Shown: positions 6,504 to 21,700 of the stretch, in pieces
Numbering within the stretch: the first letter of the stretch is position 1
How the letters are laid out: every line of letters starts with the position of its first letter
Assembly: GCA_017470055.1 (NCBI GenBank)
Contig: JAFUFD010000083.1
Span: forward strand, 1 to 42,432
DNA: 42,432 bases
From: Prevotella sp.
GTDB lineage: Bacteria > Bacteroidota > Bacteroidia > Bacteroidales > Bacteroidaceae
Reading direction: 5' to 3'
Program-made: the position numbers and the translations under genes
The notes under the pieces: model-generated
Seen by the model: only the letters and a program-made list of their open reading frames with translations
The model's database searches: none
What the model was told of the DNA's origin: nothing

Positions 6504-8088
6504 ATGATAAGGAAAAAGATGAGAGGCCGTATCGGACTTGCCGTGACAATGCTGTTTATTGTCTCGACATTCAAGGTGCAGGCACAGACAGTAGGTCTGA
6601 AAACCAATTTACTTTATGATGCCACGACGACCCCGAACCTCGGCTTGGAGGTTTCCCTTGGCGGGCATTCCAGTGTGCAGGTATTCTATGGCTATAACCC
6701 TTGGAAGTTCAGTGACCGCAAGTCCCTGCGCCATTGGTCGGTGATGCCAGAGTACCGCTATTGGAAACGTAAGCCTTTCGAGGGATGGTTTGGAGGAATC
6801 CATCTGGTCGGTGGTGAGTTTAACGTGGGGGGGGGTGACTCTTCCTCTTGGAATCTATAAGTCCATCAAAGACACCCAGAATGAGGGAACCTATTATGGT
6901 GGTGGACTGACCTTAGGCTATGCCTGGTCTATCGGTTGCCACTGGAACTTGGAGGCAGCCATTGGTGTGGGGTATGTGCATAGCAAGTTCGACAAGTATG
7001 TGAACGAGTATTGCGGTGATTTCTTAGGGACTCACCATAAGAACTATGTGGGTCCCACCAAACTCGCCTTGAATATCGTCTATCTGTTTGGCAACGGTCG
7101 CTGTGCGAAGCCTGAGGTCATAGAAGTGCCCACGACGAACGAGATCGCCTTCAAGCCTCGCTTTGCCCTTCCTTTCTTCGAGCCAGTGGCAGAGCCGGGT
7201 AAGGAACGTGCGTTCAATGGCTCCGCCTTCCTCGACTTCCCTGTCAACAAGACTGTTATCTATCGTGACTACCGTAACAATCAGGCGGAGTTGGACAAGG
7301 TGGTGGAGACGGTGCGTGAGATCAACAGCGATCCCAATATCACCATCACCCGTCTGACGATTCATGGCTATGCCTCTCCAGAGGGCTCTTATGCCAACAA
7401 CACCCGTCTGGCAAGGGAGCGTTCCGCCGCTTTCATGGAGTACCTGCGCTCACTGTTCAGTTTCAGCGACGAGGTGACGGACGTGCAGTCGACCCCAGAG
7501 GACTGGGACGGACTGCGTCGTGCCGTGGAGTCGGGGAGCCTACCTCACCGTACAGAATTGCTTGCCGTCATCGACTCCAACCTGGAGCCCGATGCCAAGG
7601 ACAGGAAACTGCGGAAAGACTATCCGCAGGACTATGCCGTTATCCTGAAGGATATCTATCCTGCCTTGCGCCATTCCGACTATACCGTCAATTACTCCAT
7701 CCGTCCGTTCACAGCGGAGGAGGCACGTGAGTTGATCAAGACGAAGCCACAGCAACTCAGTCTGAATGAGATGTTCCTCGCCGCCCAACTCTGCGAGCCC
7801 GGCTCACAGGAGTATAACGACATCTTCGCCACTGCCGTCAGGATGTATCCCGACAGTGAGACCACCAACCTCAATGCCGCCATCATCGCCTTGCAACGGA
7901 AAGACCTCAGCGAGGCGGAGCGTTACCTGCAGAAGGCAGGCGACAGTCATCAGGCACTGAACGCCCGTGGTGTCCTTGCCGCCTATCAGGGTAAGATGGA
8001 CGAGGCACGTCGCCTGTTGGAGGAGGCACAGCAGCAAGGCAGTGCCGATGCCGCTCGTAACCTGAATGAGTTACGTCTCATGCAATGA
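6504..8088 (+). pseudogene. DUF3575/OmpA-like envelope protein, frameshifted at a G9 tract
   Basis: As given, the gene is split into an N-terminal part (6504-6860, 118 codons) and a C-terminal part in another frame (open from about 6790 to 8088). Reading eight instead of nine G at 6827-6835 restores one 527-residue protein. The N-terminus has a signal peptide ending V-Q-A-Q and a DUF3575 beta-barrel-like domain that spans the break. Near residue 305 lies an OmpA-like segment (GYASPEGSYANN, then R-L-A-R-E-R-S-A), and the last ~90 residues are TPR-like helices. Such proteins commonly accompany FimA/Mfa1-type pili and are thought to act at the outer membrane. It is the first gene behind the operon promoter. 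The state could be a phase-off allele, a true pseudogene or a sequencing error. Confidence 0.85.
6827..6835 (+). repeat. Homopolymer tract of nine G at the frameshift
   Basis: Nine consecutive G follow codon 107 of the DUF3575 gene. Nine G lead to a stop at 6860; eight would restore the full frame. Both flanks are clean coding sequence in their respective frames, which places the shift exactly in the tract. Confidence 0.95.
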
Positions 8089-12765: not shown

Positions 12766-14001
12766 TTGGAGAAGACGAGACGATATCTGTTGACAGCCCT
12801 GTGGGTGGTGCTTGCCATGATTGTGGCGGCATGCAGCGGTGACGATGCGCTTGGTGGCGACCCTGTCGCTACGGGTACTGATTCCCTGTGGGTCAGTCTG
12901 CGTGTCACTGCGCCGGCGCAGCCCGCACTTGTCATGCGTGCCAGCAACGACCACGGCACCGTGGAGGAGTTTGCGGTCAAGGACGCTATCCTCGTGCTTT
13001 TCAAGAACAGTACCGATGAGGAGGCGACAGCGGAGGTATGGCGTGCCTACAAGATCACGGAGGGCTTCAAGGACGATGGACTGAACAGTATCACGCAAAG
13101 CACCCATGTCGTGCAGTCGCTCTCTGTGGACGATGATCTCCTAACCTCCGATATTCTCTATGCCCTGGTCCTGCTCAACGGTCAGGGGCAGTTTACGGTT
13201 GATAGTGATCAGAAACTGAAGGTAGGCGGCGCAGACTGGACAGGCAAAACCCTCAGTGATTTCCAAAGTCTCCCACTGACCAGTATCGGCAATACCACTA
13301 ACGGTTTCTTCATGTCGAACGCCCCCGTGAAGGACCTCAGCAGCAGTGATATAACGACCTTGGTCAAGGTGACCAATGTCTTTGTGAAAGAGCATCAGGC
13401 GAAAAGCAGCGACGGCACTACCGTCATGGTGGAGCGTGCCGCCGCCAAGATCACCCTTGATCCTGATATCCATCTTACCACAGGCATCACCGTCAATGGC
13501 AATACAGCGAACAAATTGAAGGTGCATTCCGTGGAGTGGGCGGTGGCGAAGCGCAACCAGACCAGTAGGGCGGTACGCCCTGCGCCCAGTGATCCTACTC
13601 TTGTCGACAGCGAGAATGCCATCAACAACCAGCAGCGCACGATGTGGACAGCCCCTTATGATGCTGACTATACGAGTACGAGGACGGGATGGATGAAGCC
13701 TGGAGATGTCTGTTATGTGGGAGAGCGTACAGCATCCGTAGCGGATGATGCTACCTGTATCGTGCTGAAGGTGACTTTCAAGGATGCCTCCAATGTGATT
13801 GTCAACTACAACCTCTACGGCACGGAGGGTGGTGCTAATGTCACTACCACCATTGGAGGCACGGAATATACCAACGGCGTGATGTACTATACCTATCCCA
13901 TCACCCATGTTGCCAACACCCATTATGGGGTGGTGCGTGACAATATCTACCGCCTGAAACTCTCAGAACTGACTAAGATAGGCAAGAACACCGAGCCTTG
14001 A
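12766..14001 (+). CDS. FimA/Mfa1-like accessory pilin lipoprotein
   Basis: This 411-residue lipoprotein has a lipobox I-V-A-A-C (Cys23), a Met-Arg-Ala site at 57-59, the core motif M-S-N-A-P-V, then V-E-R-A-A-A-K, and a C-terminal Y-G-V-V-R-D-N-I-Y segment. These are shared with the two larger pilins upstream, so it is likely a minor or tip-proximal subunit of the same pilus. The start is a TTG at 12766: no ATG lies in frame before the signal peptide, and TTG gives a normal n-region (M-E-K-T-R-R). The weak start may keep synthesis below that of the main subunits. Its C-terminus is shorter than in the Mfa1-like genes, lacking the final acidic strand. Confidence 0.78.
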   Translation: MEKTRRYLLTALWVVLAMIVAACSGDDALGGDPVATGTDSLWVSLRVTAPAQPALVMRASNDHGTVEEFAVKDAILVLFKNSTDEEATAEVWRAYKITEGFKDDGLNSITQSTHVVQSLSVDDDLLTSDILYALVLLNGQGQFTVDSDQKLKVGGADWTGKTLSDFQSLPLTSIGNTTNGFFMSNAPVKDLSSSDITTLVKVTNVFVKEHQAKSSDGTTVMVERAAAKITLDPDIHLTTGITVNGNTANKLKVHSVEWAVAKRNQTSRAVRPAPSDPTLVDSENAINNQQRTMWTAPYDADYTSTRTGWMKPGDVCYVGERTASVADDATCIVLKVTFKDASNVIVNYNLYGTEGGANVTTTIGGTEYTNGVMYYTYPITHVANTHYGVVRDNIYRLKLSELTKIGKNTEP

Positions 14002-14041
14002 CAGGCATCGGTAGCAGACTAAAGACGACGAAGAACGATAT

Positions 14042-17000
14042 ATGAGACATCAACAAAGCAAGATAACGAAAAGTTTCCCTCAAGGAAACCAACAGTTTCC
14101 CATAAGGAAACCAGTGGTTTCCCATAAGGAAACCAACAGTTTCCTACAGGGGAACAATCCGTATACTACCTTTGGCTATCTTACAAAGTATATCCTCCTT
14201 CCCCTGTTCCTGCTGGTTATTAGCGTGGAGGGGGCGTGGGGAGTCGATTCTGTCAAGCGATACTACGACGGTGTGGATGGTGCAAAATTGGGGAGTACTA
14301 AAGAGGCGGCAATCTCGTTTGCAGGACAGCCTATCGTGTATGTGACCTATAGTGCAGGGACATGGAACACACAAAATACAAACGATAACGGGCGCAATAA
14401 TACAAATGAGGGTTCTGCCCACACTTACACCTATAATGTTTATGCCTCCAACATGGAAGGCGAAAATAAGATTATTGACGGCTTCTCGCTGACTAAGCAG
14501 CCTGACATCCCTACTGCGGGAGCATACGTTATTATGGAGGTGGAACGGCGAGGAACGATGCGTATAGCATATTTGAAGAATGACGGTGTGAACTTTGCGC
14601 TGCTGCGTGTTGATGACACTACTATTGAAGACTATCGCTTCATAGAGAAAGGCTCGGGTGATAATTTTAGTGCCGTTTGTGAGTTCAAGGCAGAGCCTGG
14701 CAAGAAATATTACTTCTTTGGTAATCCCCAAAACTTCCGATTCTATGGTCTGTCGTATGAGTTTGAGGCGAAAGAGTGGGATTTTATGCAAATATCCAGA
14801 GATTTGGGATTGTCGGATAATTATATAGACCTATGGGTAGAATCTACGGCTACGACTACAGGTGGAAGATATTGTAAAGAACCACTAGATGGACTTACTT
14901 TACAATATGCGACTAGTGGTTCAAACCACAATAGTTGGATGTTACGTGCTCCTAACATGAATGCAGGATTATACAATGCAGGTTCAGGTGGAAGAACGTT
15001 TGGTATTTTGAATTTGAAGTCTGGCAATTATATAGAAATTGTTACACATAAAGGGCAAACAAACGACAATACAAGTGAACGAATCACCAATTCTAATGTC
15101 GACGCAAAATCTTCTACAAGAAACGGTGACTACTTAACATATGAATATACCCTTACAAGTAATAATATACTTTCTGGAACAGTTGGAAAGAATTACAGTA
15201 TTATGAACATCAGGGTATTACAATCAGAATCCCTCCCTTATTTCTCCCCCTCTTATGTCACCCGCATACTTGGTATTAACGAAACTTCGCCGATGGCGAC
15301 ACTGTATAGGGCTGATGGGACAGTAGTTAGTGACGCCACCTACACCCTGGTAGAGGGAACATCCGTAGAAGTGAGCGAGGATGGCAAAAGTTATTCGCTG
15401 AGTGGCAACGTGGGACGAAGCATTATCAGTGCTGAGGTGGATGGCGAGACAGTGACCTTGGAGATAGAGGTCAACATGCCAAACCCCTCTTGTACTTTTG
15501 CAGACGAGAGTGAGGACATCTATAAACTCTATGATGATGGGCAGACATTCCAGAATGTTGCCACGTCGAATATGCCTGGTAGCGTTATCACCTATACCTC
15601 GTCTGACGAGAGTATTGCCACTGTCGATGATGAGGGTACGGTAACGATGACGGGTAAGAGTGGTATCACTACCATTACCGCTAATGCCGCAGGTGTCGGT
15701 ATGCTGTCATCAGTATCTGCAAGTTATCGGCTGAATGTGAATATTGACAGGAGATGGTTAATTAATGATGCGTCCTTCTGGACTGAGAAGGATCGTACAA
15801 CAATGAATAGTTGGACGCAATATATCAATAATGGAACTCCTACAGAATACTATTTCCAAAATTTGAAAAGCACGTCTCTTGACTTGGGCTTGGATGTCGT
15901 CAACGGTTTGAAATGGTATAATAACCATAGCAATAGTTCTAATAGAGTACAAGCGAATTATGGTGTTGATATGCGTATATTTGCGACAGGTGGAGTGATA
16001 ATACCTTCCGCAAAGAAAGACCAAGTCATTACTTTCAATCTTCGTGCGCATACAAATAATTCAGAAAATAATCCGCTGACCAACCTTTTCAATTATACAG
16101 ACGGAACAGACGCTACTACATTGCTGGTTCCTAATAGTACTGGTGGAACATATATATTTAAAGTTAAGGACGATGGCGACGTGATGTATAAAGTCGATGG
16201 TAATACTTTTATGTATATTCGAACCATCTACCTTTACACTCCTCCCCAGTCAAACGCCACATTAGATTACAATACGGGAGATGATTTGCCTATAGGCTCA
16301 TCGGCTCTGCCTGCGAATATTATCTATAAGGACAAATACAATGACGCAATAGATGGCAGTCTGTTTGGCTCTTTCTATGACTGTACGAGTAGTGATCCCA
16401 GCGTAGCCAGAGTGGATGCGAACACTGGTGAGGTGACTGGTGTCGCAGGCGGTACGGTGACTATCAACGGAAAGATACGTTCGCTGGACCCAGTAAACCA
16501 TGCTGACGCTACGTTCTCTGTGAGTGTCACTGTCAGCAGTGACGCAACACAGACAGGTACGATGGTGGATGTCAGCCAGTTAATGCTGATGGGTACAACC
16601 AATGCCGACGGTGGTGGGCTGGACCGTACTATCCCCAATCTGCAACTGACTTTCTCAGGAGGAAATGGTGTACTGACCTCTGCTGACGGCACAACTCTGC
16701 AGATGCTGAATACGGGTCACATTGTGGTAACACCTCACTATCTGCCATCCCATGCCGAGAATATTAACTTTACTGCCGCCACGTTATACTTTACTGATGG
16801 CACCAGTCAGCGGTTCAAGCCAGCATCTTCATCGGAAACCTTGGATGTTACGGATATCATCGGTGAAGTGAAGAAGATAGGCGTAGAGTACAAGAGTACG
16901 GGAACTGCTGATCCCTCTACATTGCTTGATGGCAGTAAATTTGCGACAGAACTGAACTATGGGAGTTCGACTTACCAACTTGCTTTAGGCAACGTGATAG

Positions 17001-20000
17001 ATGCCATAGAGCCAGAGACCACTCCGAAGAAACTGCGTGGCGTGGTGTATAGCGTGTCAACTGGGGGGCATGTGACTGAAAATGGTAACCTGTTAACGGC
17101 AGAATCAGTAGGTGAGGAGACTTTATCGGCAAGTTTTGCAGGCAGCGACTATTTACAAAGTGTATCATCAACATCGTGTACGCTGAAAGTGGTAGAGGGT
17201 GACGTCAATGTCGTAACACTCGATATGATTGATAAACTGGACATTGCCACCACCCCCAAGCGAGATGGTTTCGCATTTGAGAACGACCAAGTGACTCCAA
17301 AGGTGCAACTGAATGAGGCAGATGTGCCCTCAGGCTATACGGTGACCTACTCCACGTCGGACAACACGCTTGCCTATCCCAGTTCTGATGGTAAGACGAT
17401 AATCACTGCAGATGGCGAGGGTATCGTGACTGTCAAGGCAACCCTGACACCTGCCGACCCCAGCACCAGCCCCATTCTCACTGCCGATTTCCATCTGCAG
17501 GTGCTGTCGGGCGAGTGGGACTTCCGTACGTTCCGCAGTTCAAATTTCAGTTATGAGTTGGTTAGTGTTGGCGATGAAAATGATGGCAATTGGAAACAAA
17601 ATGGTAATTCACGACAACGTGACACCGAGAACTATGAGTACATATTGGTTACCAAGACAGATGATAGTAACTATGGCGAACCTCTCTCGATGACGATGGC
17701 GCTTCAGACCCGCTACAAGATGCGTATGCAGTTCAGTAATACGTCACCGAATTATTATGGCAATATGCACCTTTTCGGTAAGGGAAGTAAGGATAACCTT
17801 GCCAGATATGAGATGGGCGGACAACTGAAAGTGCCCGTCAAGAAAGGTATGATGGTGGAAATTAACGCCAATGCCAGTGGTGATGACTCGGAGATGGAAC
17901 TCATAGGACTTACTGATACGGAGGGCAATCCCGTTGAGCGCTTCTATGTGAACACTACCCAGGAGTCGCAGTACTTCCTTGCTGCGGATGATGGTTTCTT
18001 TGAGATCATTAACTCATCGGGTAATCTTGATTTATATATCCATTGGATTAAGGTCTCGTCGAACATGGTGTTCGAGTATGGCGAGGAGACGTTTGCCTTA
18101 CAGGGTTCAACCTTCAAGAATCGATTGCTCAATGAGAACCCCAATACGACTTATTCCTACGAGTGGAAAGCCATACAAACGAATGACATTGTCCAAAGCC
18201 TGAGTGATGACGGTACCGCAACCTTACGTACTGCACAGGGTGAGTACGCCGTGACGGTGACGGATAACGGCGCAGGCAAGAGCGCTACCTATAAGGTACA
18301 TGTTGTCAATATGACAATGGACGAGATTAATAAAGATGTCAAGTCCGAACCATGGGTGTTCAATAGCACTGACCTTAGTGCTATTACAAACATCACAAGT
18401 TCGAGTGCCGACATGACTGCTGACCAGATGAAGAAGATGGTAGTTTATAGCATACCAGAAAAGAAGAACAGTGAGTACGTACGCACAATGGCAGTCCTGA
18501 CAGGCGTGGAGGGAGCGCAGACCCTGACTGTCGATGGAGCCGTTCAGGTCAATATGCTGGCAACGTTGGGATCGGTTGAGGTGGCATTCACAGTCACGGT
18601 TACTGGCGCCTCGCTCCAAGTACCGTCTCCTGTCATCTACAGCAATAATGCAACCAGTTATACCATTAAGACCACCATGGCTGCAAGCGTAAGTAATTTC
18701 AAGTTCGATATAGACAAGATGAAAGCAGGTATCATGGGTGACTTGAAGGACAAGGCTGGCAATATCACTATCACTCAGGGCAAAGATACAGACGATTCGC
18801 CTACCTGCGTCATCACGAATCTGCCTGGTGACGGAACGGGTGGCGTGATTCCCATTTATGCGACCTATGACCTTTCACCCAATACAGGCATTGGGTTAGA
18901 GGGTGCGCTGACCGTAGCCTATCAGTCACATACTTGGGACTTCAAACGAAACATGTGGGGGGAACTCGCTCAGTGGAATACACCTGCAGAAGATGGTTTG
19001 TGGGCAGAAGGGGCTACGTTCGAAAAACCTGTTGATGACATCAGTTATCATCTGGATGACAGCAAGCACTGGATGTTCCGCCGTAAGATAGGTGGTGACC
19101 GCCATGATCGTGTATCTACGAGACCAGAAACGGCTATTATTTATTATTATAACCACTCGTCCGAAGGCTTGAATGCGCTGATTATCCCAGAGACGCAGGG
19201 CTTACAGATACAATCCACCAAGAGCGGTATGCAGTTGGGTGTGGAAATGATGAGCAATCGTGTAGATGGTGTTGGTATTCCTAATGTGCCTGATGACGGC
19301 AAGCCTTACGACATACGCAACCTGATGCTGAAACTGGGTGCCAAACTCATCGTACCACGGGTAAAGCCTGGTCAGTGGATAGAGATACGCTGGACCCGCC
19401 ACGAGGAAGACCAAGGTGAGCGAATGGCGATGGAGAACCTGCTGGACGTCAACGGTACCTATATCAGCCAGACTTACAAGATTACCCACTGTCAATATCT
19501 CTACCAGCCAACAGATGGTGGCTATTATACTAACCCCAATAACCAAAGTTCTTATTTCTTCCAAGTGGCACGAGGAGAACAATTGAAAAGTGACGGCGTA
19601 ACAGTCACTACGGAAACAGTTGAACTCTATGATGACGGAACTGTCGATGCGGTTATTACCGTATCGGATAACATTTATGTCAGCATACAGCAGATTATAC
19701 TCCACGAGCCAGGATGGGAATATGACTCCAGTATGTCCGATGCCCCTTCGGGGTCACTTAATGGCGGCACGAGCAAAAAACTGCCGTTGCAGTTGGTGGG
19801 AACAGGTAGCGAGCAGACCATGGTGTTTGGTAATACCGCCAGCCAGGATGCTGTCGGTGGACCTGGAGAATGGGAGATAACCTTTGACAACGAGGGGACT
19901 CTTGTCGCAGAGAAAGGAGGCACGGAAATTAAGGATAAGCCAGGTCATTATGCAGAGAATAGCGCATGGCTTAAATACACCAGTGGCTGGGGCAAGGCAT

Positions 20001-21700
20001 ATGTTACCCTGACCAGTTTCTCGCAGAACAAAAAGTATCTGGCAGGTCGTAACACATGGGTCATCACCTTCGGCGAACAGCCCAAGCAGGAGTATCCCTA
20101 CACGTGGGACTTCACCAAATACCTGAGTCAAACAAAGGGGCAAGTGGAGAGTGCCAATGATGGGTCGACCGTCGAAGACTCCTACTATGCCGCATTCGAT
20201 GGCAAAAATCCGACAGGAGCCCATGAGTACAGACAGGTGACAGATACATGGGAAAATGTCGAGGAAAGTGGTGAAGCCACAGACAAGAACAAAATTAACA
20301 CAACGGGGTATAACACCAGAAAGTACCAGTCGTACTTTGTGGATGGCGCCCAACTGGTGAGCCCAGCAGTGCCTAACGGTATTCTCCCTGAGACAGCAGG
20401 CTTGGGATTCGCCCTTAACGACAAGGAACATGGTGGGCTGACACTCGATATGCAGGCAACGGTGACGCCTCCTGATAACAGTGACAATGGTAATGGCGGT
20501 GGTGGCAGCGCACCTTCACGAAGAAGGGCTTCAAAGAGGGCTTATACACTGACGGGTGATGGTGAGGGACACGTGACGCTGACGGGTGGCGGTACGGTGA
20601 CGATACCGAAGCCCTCAGACGACTTCACAAAATATTATATCTATGTGAAGTCAAGTTCCAAGCCTGATGCGGTGGTGAATGCCATCTATCAAGACGGCTC
20701 CGAGTCTAAAATCACGGATGCGGCAACAGGTGTTTATGAATATATCCCTGAGAGCAACGATGACGTGAAGATCACGTTCGCCGGCAACGTAACAATCGAC
20801 CTGATTGGTGTGACGAACATCCTGAAGCCGATGAGCGAGGTGGGTGGTCGTGCTTGGGCTACGGAGAGCCGTAAGGTGAATATAGACCCCAGTCTGACGC
20901 ATGAGTTCACACAGAATGACGTGCGTGCCTTTACCGTACGCTATGACAGTTACGACTTGAATACGGCGACGGTGGCATTGATGGAACTGACAGATGGCTA
21001 TGTCAGAGGCGGTGATAGTCAGGTTGATGGCGCTCAAGGCGTGGTGCTGAAACTGGACGCACTAACCAATCTAACCGACGGCAAGGTGCATAAGGCGAGC
21101 GGCAAGCATCAGGTGCCCCTGTTCTATCCAGCCATCACTACCTTTGCCAGCAGTGATGCGGACTTTAGCCCCACAACGGGTAATATGATGTACCCGAATG
21201 TGACGGAGTCGCTGCAAGATAGTGAGACACAGGGAGGCTATACCAAGTTCATCCTGACAAATATCCACTGGACGTATAACACTGAGCATACGCTGAACCA
21301 AGATGAGGCTGAGGCTTATAAGGCTGCGGAGGCGGCAGGATTCTACCGACTCCATATCTGGGAGACAACAGCGGATGCTGATACGAGGAATACCCTTGCC
21401 GCCAATACGGCATACCTCTGTGTGCCTACCGCCCAACTGCCTACCGCTGTCTGGGCTAATCAGACGAAGACATCTGGCGTGCGCACCTTCGATAGCATTG
21501 GAATCCGAATGGACGGTATCGGGGAAGAGCAGACGACAACAATCGAGCCGTCAGGTCCTGTGACCTTTGGCGTAGAGGGCGACGACCATGATCCATGGTA
21601 CACCCTCAAGGGCATCCGTCTGCCTGCTAAGCCAACCTCCAAGGGCATCTATATCCATCGGGGAAAGAAGGTGTTTATCTCAGGGTCCGCATGGCGTTGA
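14042..21700 (+). CDS. Giant modular surface protein, candidate pilus-associated adhesin
   Basis: I recognise no single family for this 2552-residue protein. A 47-residue N-terminal extension, largely encoded by 22-bp repeats, precedes a hydrophobic signal segment (about residues 50-65, ending E-G-A-W-G) without a lipobox. The body alternates bacterial Ig-like domains (near 430-575, 760-850 and 1060-1155, with S-D-E-S-I-A-T-V and S-D-P-S-V-A-R-V signatures) with modules that start with a W-D-F motif (near 245, 1158, 1631 and 2021; related ones near 571 and 1436). A glycine linker with R-R-R-A-S lies near 2155. The C-terminus resembles short sorting-type ends (G-I-Y-I-H-R-G-K-K-V-F-I). It is last in the pilus operon, 40 bp after the accessory pilin, so a role as adhesin is an inference. 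No enzyme motif was seen. Confidence 0.8.
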   Translation: MRHQQSKITKSFPQGNQQFPIRKPVVSHKETNSFLQGNNPYTTFGYLTKYILLPLFLLVISVEGAWGVDSVKRYYDGVDGAKLGSTKEAAISFAGQPIVYVTYSAGTWNTQNTNDNGRNNTNEGSAHTYTYNVYASNMEGENKIIDGFSLTKQPDIPTAGAYVIMEVERRGTMRIAYLKNDGVNFALLRVDDTTIEDYRFIEKGSGDNFSAVCEFKAEPGKKYYFFGNPQNFRFYGLSYEFEAKEWDFMQISRDLGLSDNYIDLWVESTATTTGGRYCKEPLDGLTLQYATSGSNHNSWMLRAPNMNAGLYNAGSGGRTFGILNLKSGNYIEIVTHKGQTNDNTSERITNSNVDAKSSTRNGDYLTYEYTLTSNNILSGTVGKNYSIMNIRVLQSESLPYFSPSYVTRILGINETSPMATLYRADGTVVSDATYTLVEGTSVEVSEDGKSYSLSGNVGRSIISAEVDGETVTLEIEVNMPNPSCTFADESEDIYKLYDDGQTFQNVATSNMPGSVITYTSSDESIATVDDEGTVTMTGKSGITTITANAAGVGMLSSVSASYRLNVNIDRRWLINDASFWTEKDRTTMNSWTQYINNGTPTEYYFQNLKSTSLDLGLDVVNGLKWYNNHSNSSNRVQANYGVDMRIFATGGVIIPSAKKDQVITFNLRAHTNNSENNPLTNLFNYTDGTDATTLLVPNSTGGTYIFKVKDDGDVMYKVDGNTFMYIRTIYLYTPPQSNATLDYNTGDDLPIGSSALPANIIYKDKYNDAIDGSLFGSFYDCTSSDPSVARVDANTGEVTGVAGGTVTINGKIRSLDPVNHADATFSVSVTVSSDATQTGTMVDVSQLMLMGTTNADGGGLDRTIPNLQLTFSGGNGVLTSADGTTLQMLNTGHIVVTPHYLPSHAENINFTAATLYFTDGTSQRFKPASSSETLDVTDIIGEVKKIGVEYKSTGTADPSTLLDGSKFATELNYGSSTYQLALGNVIDAIEPETTPKKLRGVVYSVSTGGHVTENGNLLTAESVGEETLSASFAGSDYLQSVSSTSCTLKVVEGDVNVVTLDMIDKLDIATTPKRDGFAFENDQVTPKVQLNEADVPSGYTVTYSTSDNTLAYPSSDGKTIITADGEGIVTVKATLTPADPSTSPILTADFHLQVLSGEWDFRTFRSSNFSYELVSVGDENDGNWKQNGNSRQRDTENYEYILVTKTDDSNYGEPLSMTMALQTRYKMRMQFSNTSPNYYGNMHLFGKGSKDNLARYEMGGQLKVPVKKGMMVEINANASGDDSEMELIGLTDTEGNPVERFYVNTTQESQYFLAADDGFFEIINSSGNLDLYIHWIKVSSNMVFEYGEETFALQGSTFKNRLLNENPNTTYSYEWKAIQTNDIVQSLSDDGTATLRTAQGEYAVTVTDNGAGKSATYKVHVVNMTMDEINKDVKSEPWVFNSTDLSAITNITSSSADMTADQMKKMVVYSIPEKKNSEYVRTMAVLTGVEGAQTLTVDGAVQVNMLATLGSVEVAFTVTVTGASLQVPSPVIYSNNATSYTIKTTMAASVSNFKFDIDKMKAGIMGDLKDKAGNITITQGKDTDDSPTCVITNLPGDGTGGVIPIYATYDLSPNTGIGLEGALTVAYQSHTWDFKRNMWGELAQWNTPAEDGLWAEGATFEKPVDDISYHLDDSKHWMFRRKIGGDRHDRVSTRPETAIIYYYNHSSEGLNALIIPETQGLQIQSTKSGMQLGVEMMSNRVDGVGIPNVPDDGKPYDIRNLMLKLGAKLIVPRVKPGQWIEIRWTRHEEDQGERMAMENLLDVNGTYISQTYKITHCQYLYQPTDGGYYTNPNNQSSYFFQVARGEQLKSDGVTVTTETVELYDDGTVDAVITVSDNIYVSIQQIILHEPGWEYDSSMSDAPSGSLNGGTSKKLPLQLVGTGSEQTMVFGNTASQDAVGGPGEWEITFDNEGTLVAEKGGTEIKDKPGHYAENSAWLKYTSGWGKAYVTLTSFSQNKKYLAGRNTWVITFGEQPKQEYPYTWDFTKYLSQTKGQVESANDGSTVEDSYYAAFDGKNPTGAHEYRQVTDTWENVEESGEATDKNKINTTGYNTRKYQSYFVDGAQLVSPAVPNGILPETAGLGFALNDKEHGGLTLDMQATVTPPDNSDNGNGGGGSAPSRRRASKRAYTLTGDGEGHVTLTGGGTVTIPKPSDDFTKYYIYVKSSSKPDAVVNAIYQDGSESKITDAATGVYEYIPESNDDVKITFAGNVTIDLIGVTNILKPMSEVGGRAWATESRKVNIDPSLTHEFTQNDVRAFTVRYDSYDLNTATVALMELTDGYVRGGDSQVDGAQGVVLKLDALTNLTDGKVHKASGKHQVPLFYPAITTFASSDADFSPTTGNMMYPNVTESLQDSETQGGYTKFILTNIHWTYNTEHTLNQDEAEAYKAAEAAGFYRLHIWETTADADTRNTLAANTAYLCVPTAQLPTAVWANQTKTSGVRTFDSIGIRMDGIGEEQTTTIEPSGPVTFGVEGDDHDPWYTLKGIRLPAKPTSKGIYIHRGKKVFISGSAWR
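14073..14160 (+). repeat. Four 22-bp tandem palindromic repeats inside the adhesin 5' coding end
   Basis: Units start at 14073, 14095, 14117 and 14139, exactly 22 bp apart. The core is GTTTCCnnnnnGGAAAC, perfect in units 1-3 and slightly degenerate in unit 4. Because 22 is not a multiple of three, each unit is translated in a different frame. Gain or loss of one unit would put the ATG at 14042 out of frame with the signal peptide. Confidence 0.93.

Follow-up and report, generated by a model that had tools for sequence, protein, structure and literature searches.

The window, by which we mean the whole 42,432-bp stretch of Prevotella DNA analyzed here, carries on its plus strand a gene for a 2552-residue secreted-type protein with a Big_2 match (14042..21700), referred to below as the adhesin. 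This gene comes after fimbrillin and Mfa2 genes in a run of Mfa1/FimA-type fimbrial genes, and a fimbrillin-like gene lies upstream of it (12766..14001, plus strand; Fimbrillin_C above its cut-off, the Mfa1 family below it). The start codon and first ten codons of the adhesin (MRHQQSKITK; 14042..14072, plus strand) are followed by a palindromic array of four units (14073..14160, no strand assigned) and then by a hydrophobic leader (14161..14250, plus strand; ..KYILLPLFLLVISVEGAWG in translation), a putative signal peptide that has similar counterparts in array-free homologues. Leaders were judged by eye throughout, with no signal-peptide predictor behind them. At the contig end, positions 1-198 of the window hold a 74-bp direct repeat (2.7 copies, 98% alike), each copy of which contains TAACTTTG, which we take to resemble the Bacteroidota -7 promoter element. 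By eye, the gene after these repeats is like dihydropteroate synthase.

The array and its reading frame

The array units start at 14073, 14095, 14117 and 14139, at a spacing of exactly 22 bp, and each consists of a GTTTCCNNNNNGGAAAC palindrome and a 5-bp linker; the fourth unit reads GTTTCCTACAGGGGAAC. Along the array a half-site occurs every 11 bp, GTTTCC and GGAAAC taking turns, and the outermost ones span 14073-14155 (83 bp). Tandem Repeats Finder reported a period of 22 with 3.9 copies and 81% match, which together with the unit positions bears out an earlier sequence-only reading of four palindromic 22-bp units in the start of the adhesin. The units are degenerate, with 14 to 20 of 22 bases alike, and exact direct repeats among them reach 19 bp, at a distance of 22 and also of 44 bp. 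Linkers of this array differ from those in other copies of the same genome. With its flanks, the array folds with a z of −6.7 as RNA and −6.2 as DNA relative to shuffles. Searches for a known RNA family returned just sub-threshold microRNA matches, as expected of any hairpin, and a search for plasmid relatives gave no match.

An array detector was applied to 20 loci, mostly ones selected because arrays were known in them, and to one dinucleotide shuffle of them (305,777 bases); it reported 12 arrays in the real versions and none in the shuffle. Loci fetched for other reasons were counted as 76, where the ranges L182-L211, L126-L155 and L216-L232 make 77 and L010-L038 adds 29 more. Among these, arrays were present in 2/30 methyltransferase loci and in 3/30 loci orthologous to the C90 site of the window's genome (its own and those of genomes G162 and G035), and the detector found none in the remaining 46. 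Neither chance nor composition accounts for the array: the shuffle yields none, loci fetched for other reasons seldom hold one, and the fold is lower than that of shuffles by 6 to 7 standard deviations.

The preceding in-frame stop is at 14012, and the ATG at 14042 is the sole in-frame ATG, GTG or TTG between that stop and the array. A frame scan also upheld the earlier statement that no such codon lies in frame from the array to the hydrophobic leader; to this we add in-frame GTG codons at 14114, inside the array, and 14225, inside the leader. Both other frames stop within the array (14103 and 14125) and then beyond it at 14221 and 14343, so any product made after gain or loss of one or two units would be short. 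The arithmetic of the sequence-only reading, in which 22 is 1 modulo 3 and a change of one or two units breaks the frame, is thus correct, with the stops now mapped. TAA occurs in units 2 and 3 at a phase that is not read, and units 1 and 4, where TAA would be read, lack it. Since TAA is found just in those units where it is out of frame, the array as it stands is fitted to one register.

Relatives of the adhesin allow the array to be compared with its absence. The C-terminal 365 residues were matched in 19/396 genus genomes, the window's own counted, and 17 of these 19 members have readable N-termini, the remaining two running off contigs. Only two of the 17 carry an array: the window's adhesin and its homologue in G162, a close relative. 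The other 15 pass directly from start codon to n-region to leader, so the array is an addition to a leader that is ordinary in other respects. The G162 homologue (L172; 43.6% identity over 374 aa) also begins MRH and has its array 16 codons in, with five units, of which one is 21 bp; the relatives are consistent with translation starting at 14042. Matches to the N-terminal part of the adhesin were obtained in 54/398 genus genomes, and, the window's own aside, these matches are weak and fall almost entirely on a single Ig-like stretch. Two related genes are recorded as separate observations. An adhesin homologue in G348 (contig C125, locus L227) has a different palindrome, CCCTCCCTATGCAGGGAGGG, in frame in its leader n-region. 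At locus L008, a 2993-aa ORF related to the adhesin has at its start, from position 7340 and ahead of the leader, a stretch that we take to resemble part of a RhuM-type protein.

A dispersed family of tandem palindromes

Genomes were searched with a pattern of two palindromes, allowing up to 3 mismatches, and with the same pattern written backwards as a control. The window's genome (G000) has 25 matches per strand, in 7 arrays at the threshold used, G162 has 22 matches, and nine other genomes have 2 to 23 each. Thus 11/11 genomes matched and 0/11 matched the control; note that these 11 had been preselected by matches to a shorter pattern. That shorter pattern matched 21/200 genus genomes (60 matches) and its backwards control 23/200 (43 matches), so the prevalence of the family in the genus is not cleanly given by it, as it does no better than the control by genome count. 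Across the order, 3/393 genomes matched the two-palindrome pattern, one being the window's own (25 matches). The other two belong to other genera (2/390 genomes, one match each; the control matched 1 genome), and two further genus genomes in this set had no two-palindrome match. From these counts against the control, the family appears to be patchy within the genus and, outside the genus, not above chance. In G060, the backwards control (CCTTT..CAAAGG..CCTTT) matches 12 times, which suggests a separate repeat family in that genome.

The 11 chosen genomes gave at least 42 non-redundant arrays with a minimum of three units, a sample and not a census: 20 with three units, 10 with four, 11 with five and one with six. 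An array was scored as in-gene if it lies in frame in an ORF that has 300 or more codons besides those of the array. By this measure 12/42 are in-gene, in unrelated genes, and 30/42 lie outside long ORFs. Settings include the interiors of genes, the spaces between convergent and between divergent genes, and positions after stop codons. In the window's genome, a 117-aa ORF begins within the C7 array and overlaps it.

Eight of the 12 in-gene arrays are internal, away from the gene start, and several of the hosts are of housekeeping type. A THUMP-like methyltransferase hosts an array in three species, in a linker of variable length as judged from an alignment of 31 sequences. By eye, the G035 and G037 methyltransferases seem to hold decayed arrays, where the detector reports none. 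In an ABC-F ATPase the array follows the second ATPase domain (alignment to YheS). Other hosts are a CobQ-like protein (for which the search for solved relatives covered parts other than the insert site), a phage-type integrase, an acyltransferase, one protein with a sub-threshold MG2 match and one without a match. Three in-gene arrays precede a hydrophobic leader: those of the window, of L172 and of a further G162 gene, L173. In G000 and G162 together, in-gene arrays (n = 5) are 83 or 104 bp long, that is 2 modulo 3, and the others (n = 9) are 105 bp (eight) or 127 bp (one); this contrast was noticed post hoc, and since orthologous pairs are not independent it represents few independent arrays.

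These settings bear on whether the array is a regulatory element, acting through RNA hairpins close to the start codon or by offering proteins a row of half-sites to bind, and so controlling the adhesin and other neighboring genes. The strong folding (z −6.7) and the strict 11-bp alternation of half-sites would fit such a role, as would the outer linker bases, which are complementary in 97/117 linkers (T-A 57, C-G 24, A-T 16), and one of six intra-unit pairs, which covaries clearly (11 double changes, p 0.0002). However, the other variable intra-unit pair shows no covariation (p 0.30), the linker pairing may follow lineage, arrays occur alike in genes and in convergent, divergent and post-stop settings, and the adhesin family mostly does without one. 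We therefore regard regulation as quite unlikely to explain the array.

Unit number and mobility

Four intergenic arrays could be aligned between orthologous sites of G000 and G162. All four have five units in both species and no indel in the array; taken with a further 30-50 bp they are 85-97% identical, and aligned flanks are mostly 93 to 96% identical, with one at 86%. Arrays within genes do vary. The methyltransferase of G000 has one unit more than that of G162, and this unit is 21 bp, which keeps the frame. Another leader is preceded by a single unit in G149 but by four units in G162, a 66-bp in-frame step. In these two cases (G162:C1, L173; G149:C7, L241) nearly the same palindrome-bearing leader stands before different mature proteins, as if the leaders had been swapped as modules. 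At the C90 site, three units are recognized in G035, as against five. At this site we also observed an extra 176-aa gene in G162 adjoining the orthologous array (L174 and L175; G000:C90, G162:C34). On these alignments, units are gained or lost over species times, and the two alignable in-gene changes keep the frame.

Such frame-keeping is what a frame filter predicts, whereas a switch predicts some out-of-frame copies. Among the seven arrays of the window's genome there is no clear out-of-frame copy, with C7 and its overlapping 117-aa ORF a doubtful case, in what is a small sample judged by open frames. Note that this genome is a metagenome-assembled consensus, which would hide mixed unit numbers.

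The sequence-only reading had described the layout of a contingency locus, in which 22-bp slippage shifts the adhesin frame so that the gene is ON at 1, 4 or 7 units and otherwise OFF. Part of this stands. The unit length is not a multiple of three, the array lies downstream of the only start, both other frames stop early, the 19-bp exact repeats at 22 and 44 bp would offer substrates for slippage, the homologous adhesin gene of G162 carries an array at the same place, and a 66-bp step has occurred ahead of another leader. The part that lacks support is a dedicated on/off switch. Arrays of the same kind are scattered genome-wide, most of them outside long ORFs and most of the in-gene ones internal, in genes of housekeeping type among others; four of four intergenic arrays are unchanged in number between two species; the units are degenerate; both alignable in-gene differences are in frame; and 15/17 adhesin N-termini have no array. 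Due to this family context, we consider the switch the less likely reading and, as an account of the array, unlikely, with a slow frame switch possible.

Mobility was approached through empty sites and through transposases. For the C7 array of G000 and the L173 array of G162, six relatives each were compared for precise empty sites; flanks did not align across the site, the sole exception being G149, with its one unit where G162 has four. None of the sites compared showed a clean empty state flanked by a target duplication. A directly oriented outer half-site, matching in 5 or more of 6 bases, is present left of 7/42 and right of 10/42 arrays, over a background of about 0.5%, and 15 of these 17 ends belong to G000 or G162. 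Such ends are suggestive of something resembling a terminal inverted repeat. The window copy has no clear end repeats, with 3-4 of 6 bases matching at either end.

Spread of the palindromes as REP-type elements by a REP-associated tyrosine transposase would be compatible with two observations. A protein encoded about 1.6 kb from one array (L110, 4146-5099; G000:C120) matches NF047646 REP_Tyr_transpos with an E value of 2.4e-8 and 34 bits against a cut-off of 80, and Bacteroidetes transposase subclasses with atypical hairpins, or with hairpins inside their own genes, are described in PMC6006769. Counting against this, no array of three or more units occurs near six Y1 transposase genes of G072 and G055, in loci of 10.7-16 kb, and Pfam Y1_Tnp has no match in G000 or G162, though both are array-rich. 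With the Y1 loci array-free and the nearby match below its cut-off, the link to a REP tyrosine transposase is unsupported, and we judge it very unlikely. By eye, a similar transposase-like gene stands beside the orthologous array in G162 (L114).

A probable in-frame passenger in a leader

We conclude that the array is probably a copy of a dispersed tandem-palindrome family, carried as an in-frame passenger in the n-region of a signal peptide. The element would spread as a unit, new units would arise by duplication of palindromes, and selection would remove copies or unit changes that break a frame; the in-gene copies observed would then be those that are tolerated. It may be tolerated in linkers and leader n-regions when in frame, and would change slowly. 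In the adhesin, the array probably just lengthens the leader, though a strong hairpin about 30 nucleotides after the start codon may lower translation, and slippage that now and then removes a unit could disrupt the frame, which would be an incidental effect and not an evolved switch. Several points weigh against the passenger reading: mobility comes with neither a precise empty site and target duplication nor a transposase tied to it, the window copy stands apart in its ends and linkers, the shorter pattern does no better than its control, and unit number differs between species in genes. That three of 12 in-gene arrays lie just before a leader could mean more than tolerance. A variant of the passenger reading, which we hold to be unlikely, is that this Bacteroidota family, acting in the way of Rickettsia palindromic elements (RPE), colonizes the frames of unrelated genes and expands from one palindrome by frame-filtered steps, and that its repeated landings ahead of the leaders of fimbrial-cluster adhesins make slow, frame-gated variable sites of those leaders.

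The best-known palindromic elements that sit in frame are those of Rickettsia. The present family shares two of their traits, in that many copies occur in one genus (with the prevalence there not cleanly measured) and that they lie in frame in unrelated genes. As described in PMC10969869, RPE are elements of about 150 bp, each encoding a conserved peptide, in frame inside unrelated genes. Both are thus short palindromic elements dispersed in one genus; compared by description and not by sequence, the arrays differ from RPE in having 22-bp palindromes in tandem (3-6 units) and an encoded peptide that varies with the frame. BrickBuilt, a MITE of Porphyromonas gingivalis, has a 23-nt minisatellite in a dispersed element with inverted ends, so its unit is of about the same length and its host of the same order. 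According to PMC4596501, BrickBuilt is always intergenic, includes leader and tail segments and has different terminal repeats, whereas the present units are palindromic and 12/42 arrays lie in long ORFs. Alternating, regularly spaced palindromes recall REP/BIME, but at the six Y1 loci none flanked a tyrosine transposase gene in the manner of REP/RAYT systems. Simple-sequence contingency loci likewise have a unit that is not a multiple of three after an only start codon; the present unit is long and degenerate, and its number is unchanged between two species at four intergenic sites. Among the literature matches listed, which were mostly abstract beginnings, we found no report of such repeats in Prevotella. 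On this comparison we class the family with in-frame palindromic elements as a distinct form that belongs to neither RPE nor BrickBuilt.

A case from a second phylum, with tandem units and array-free homologues, would allow one to ask how proteins absorb inserts and to test whether the reading frame filters insert growth. It also cautions that a surface gene with a frame-shifting repeat in its start is not necessarily a contingency locus, and that a search for the same repeat elsewhere in the genome should be the first control wherever such a locus is suspected.
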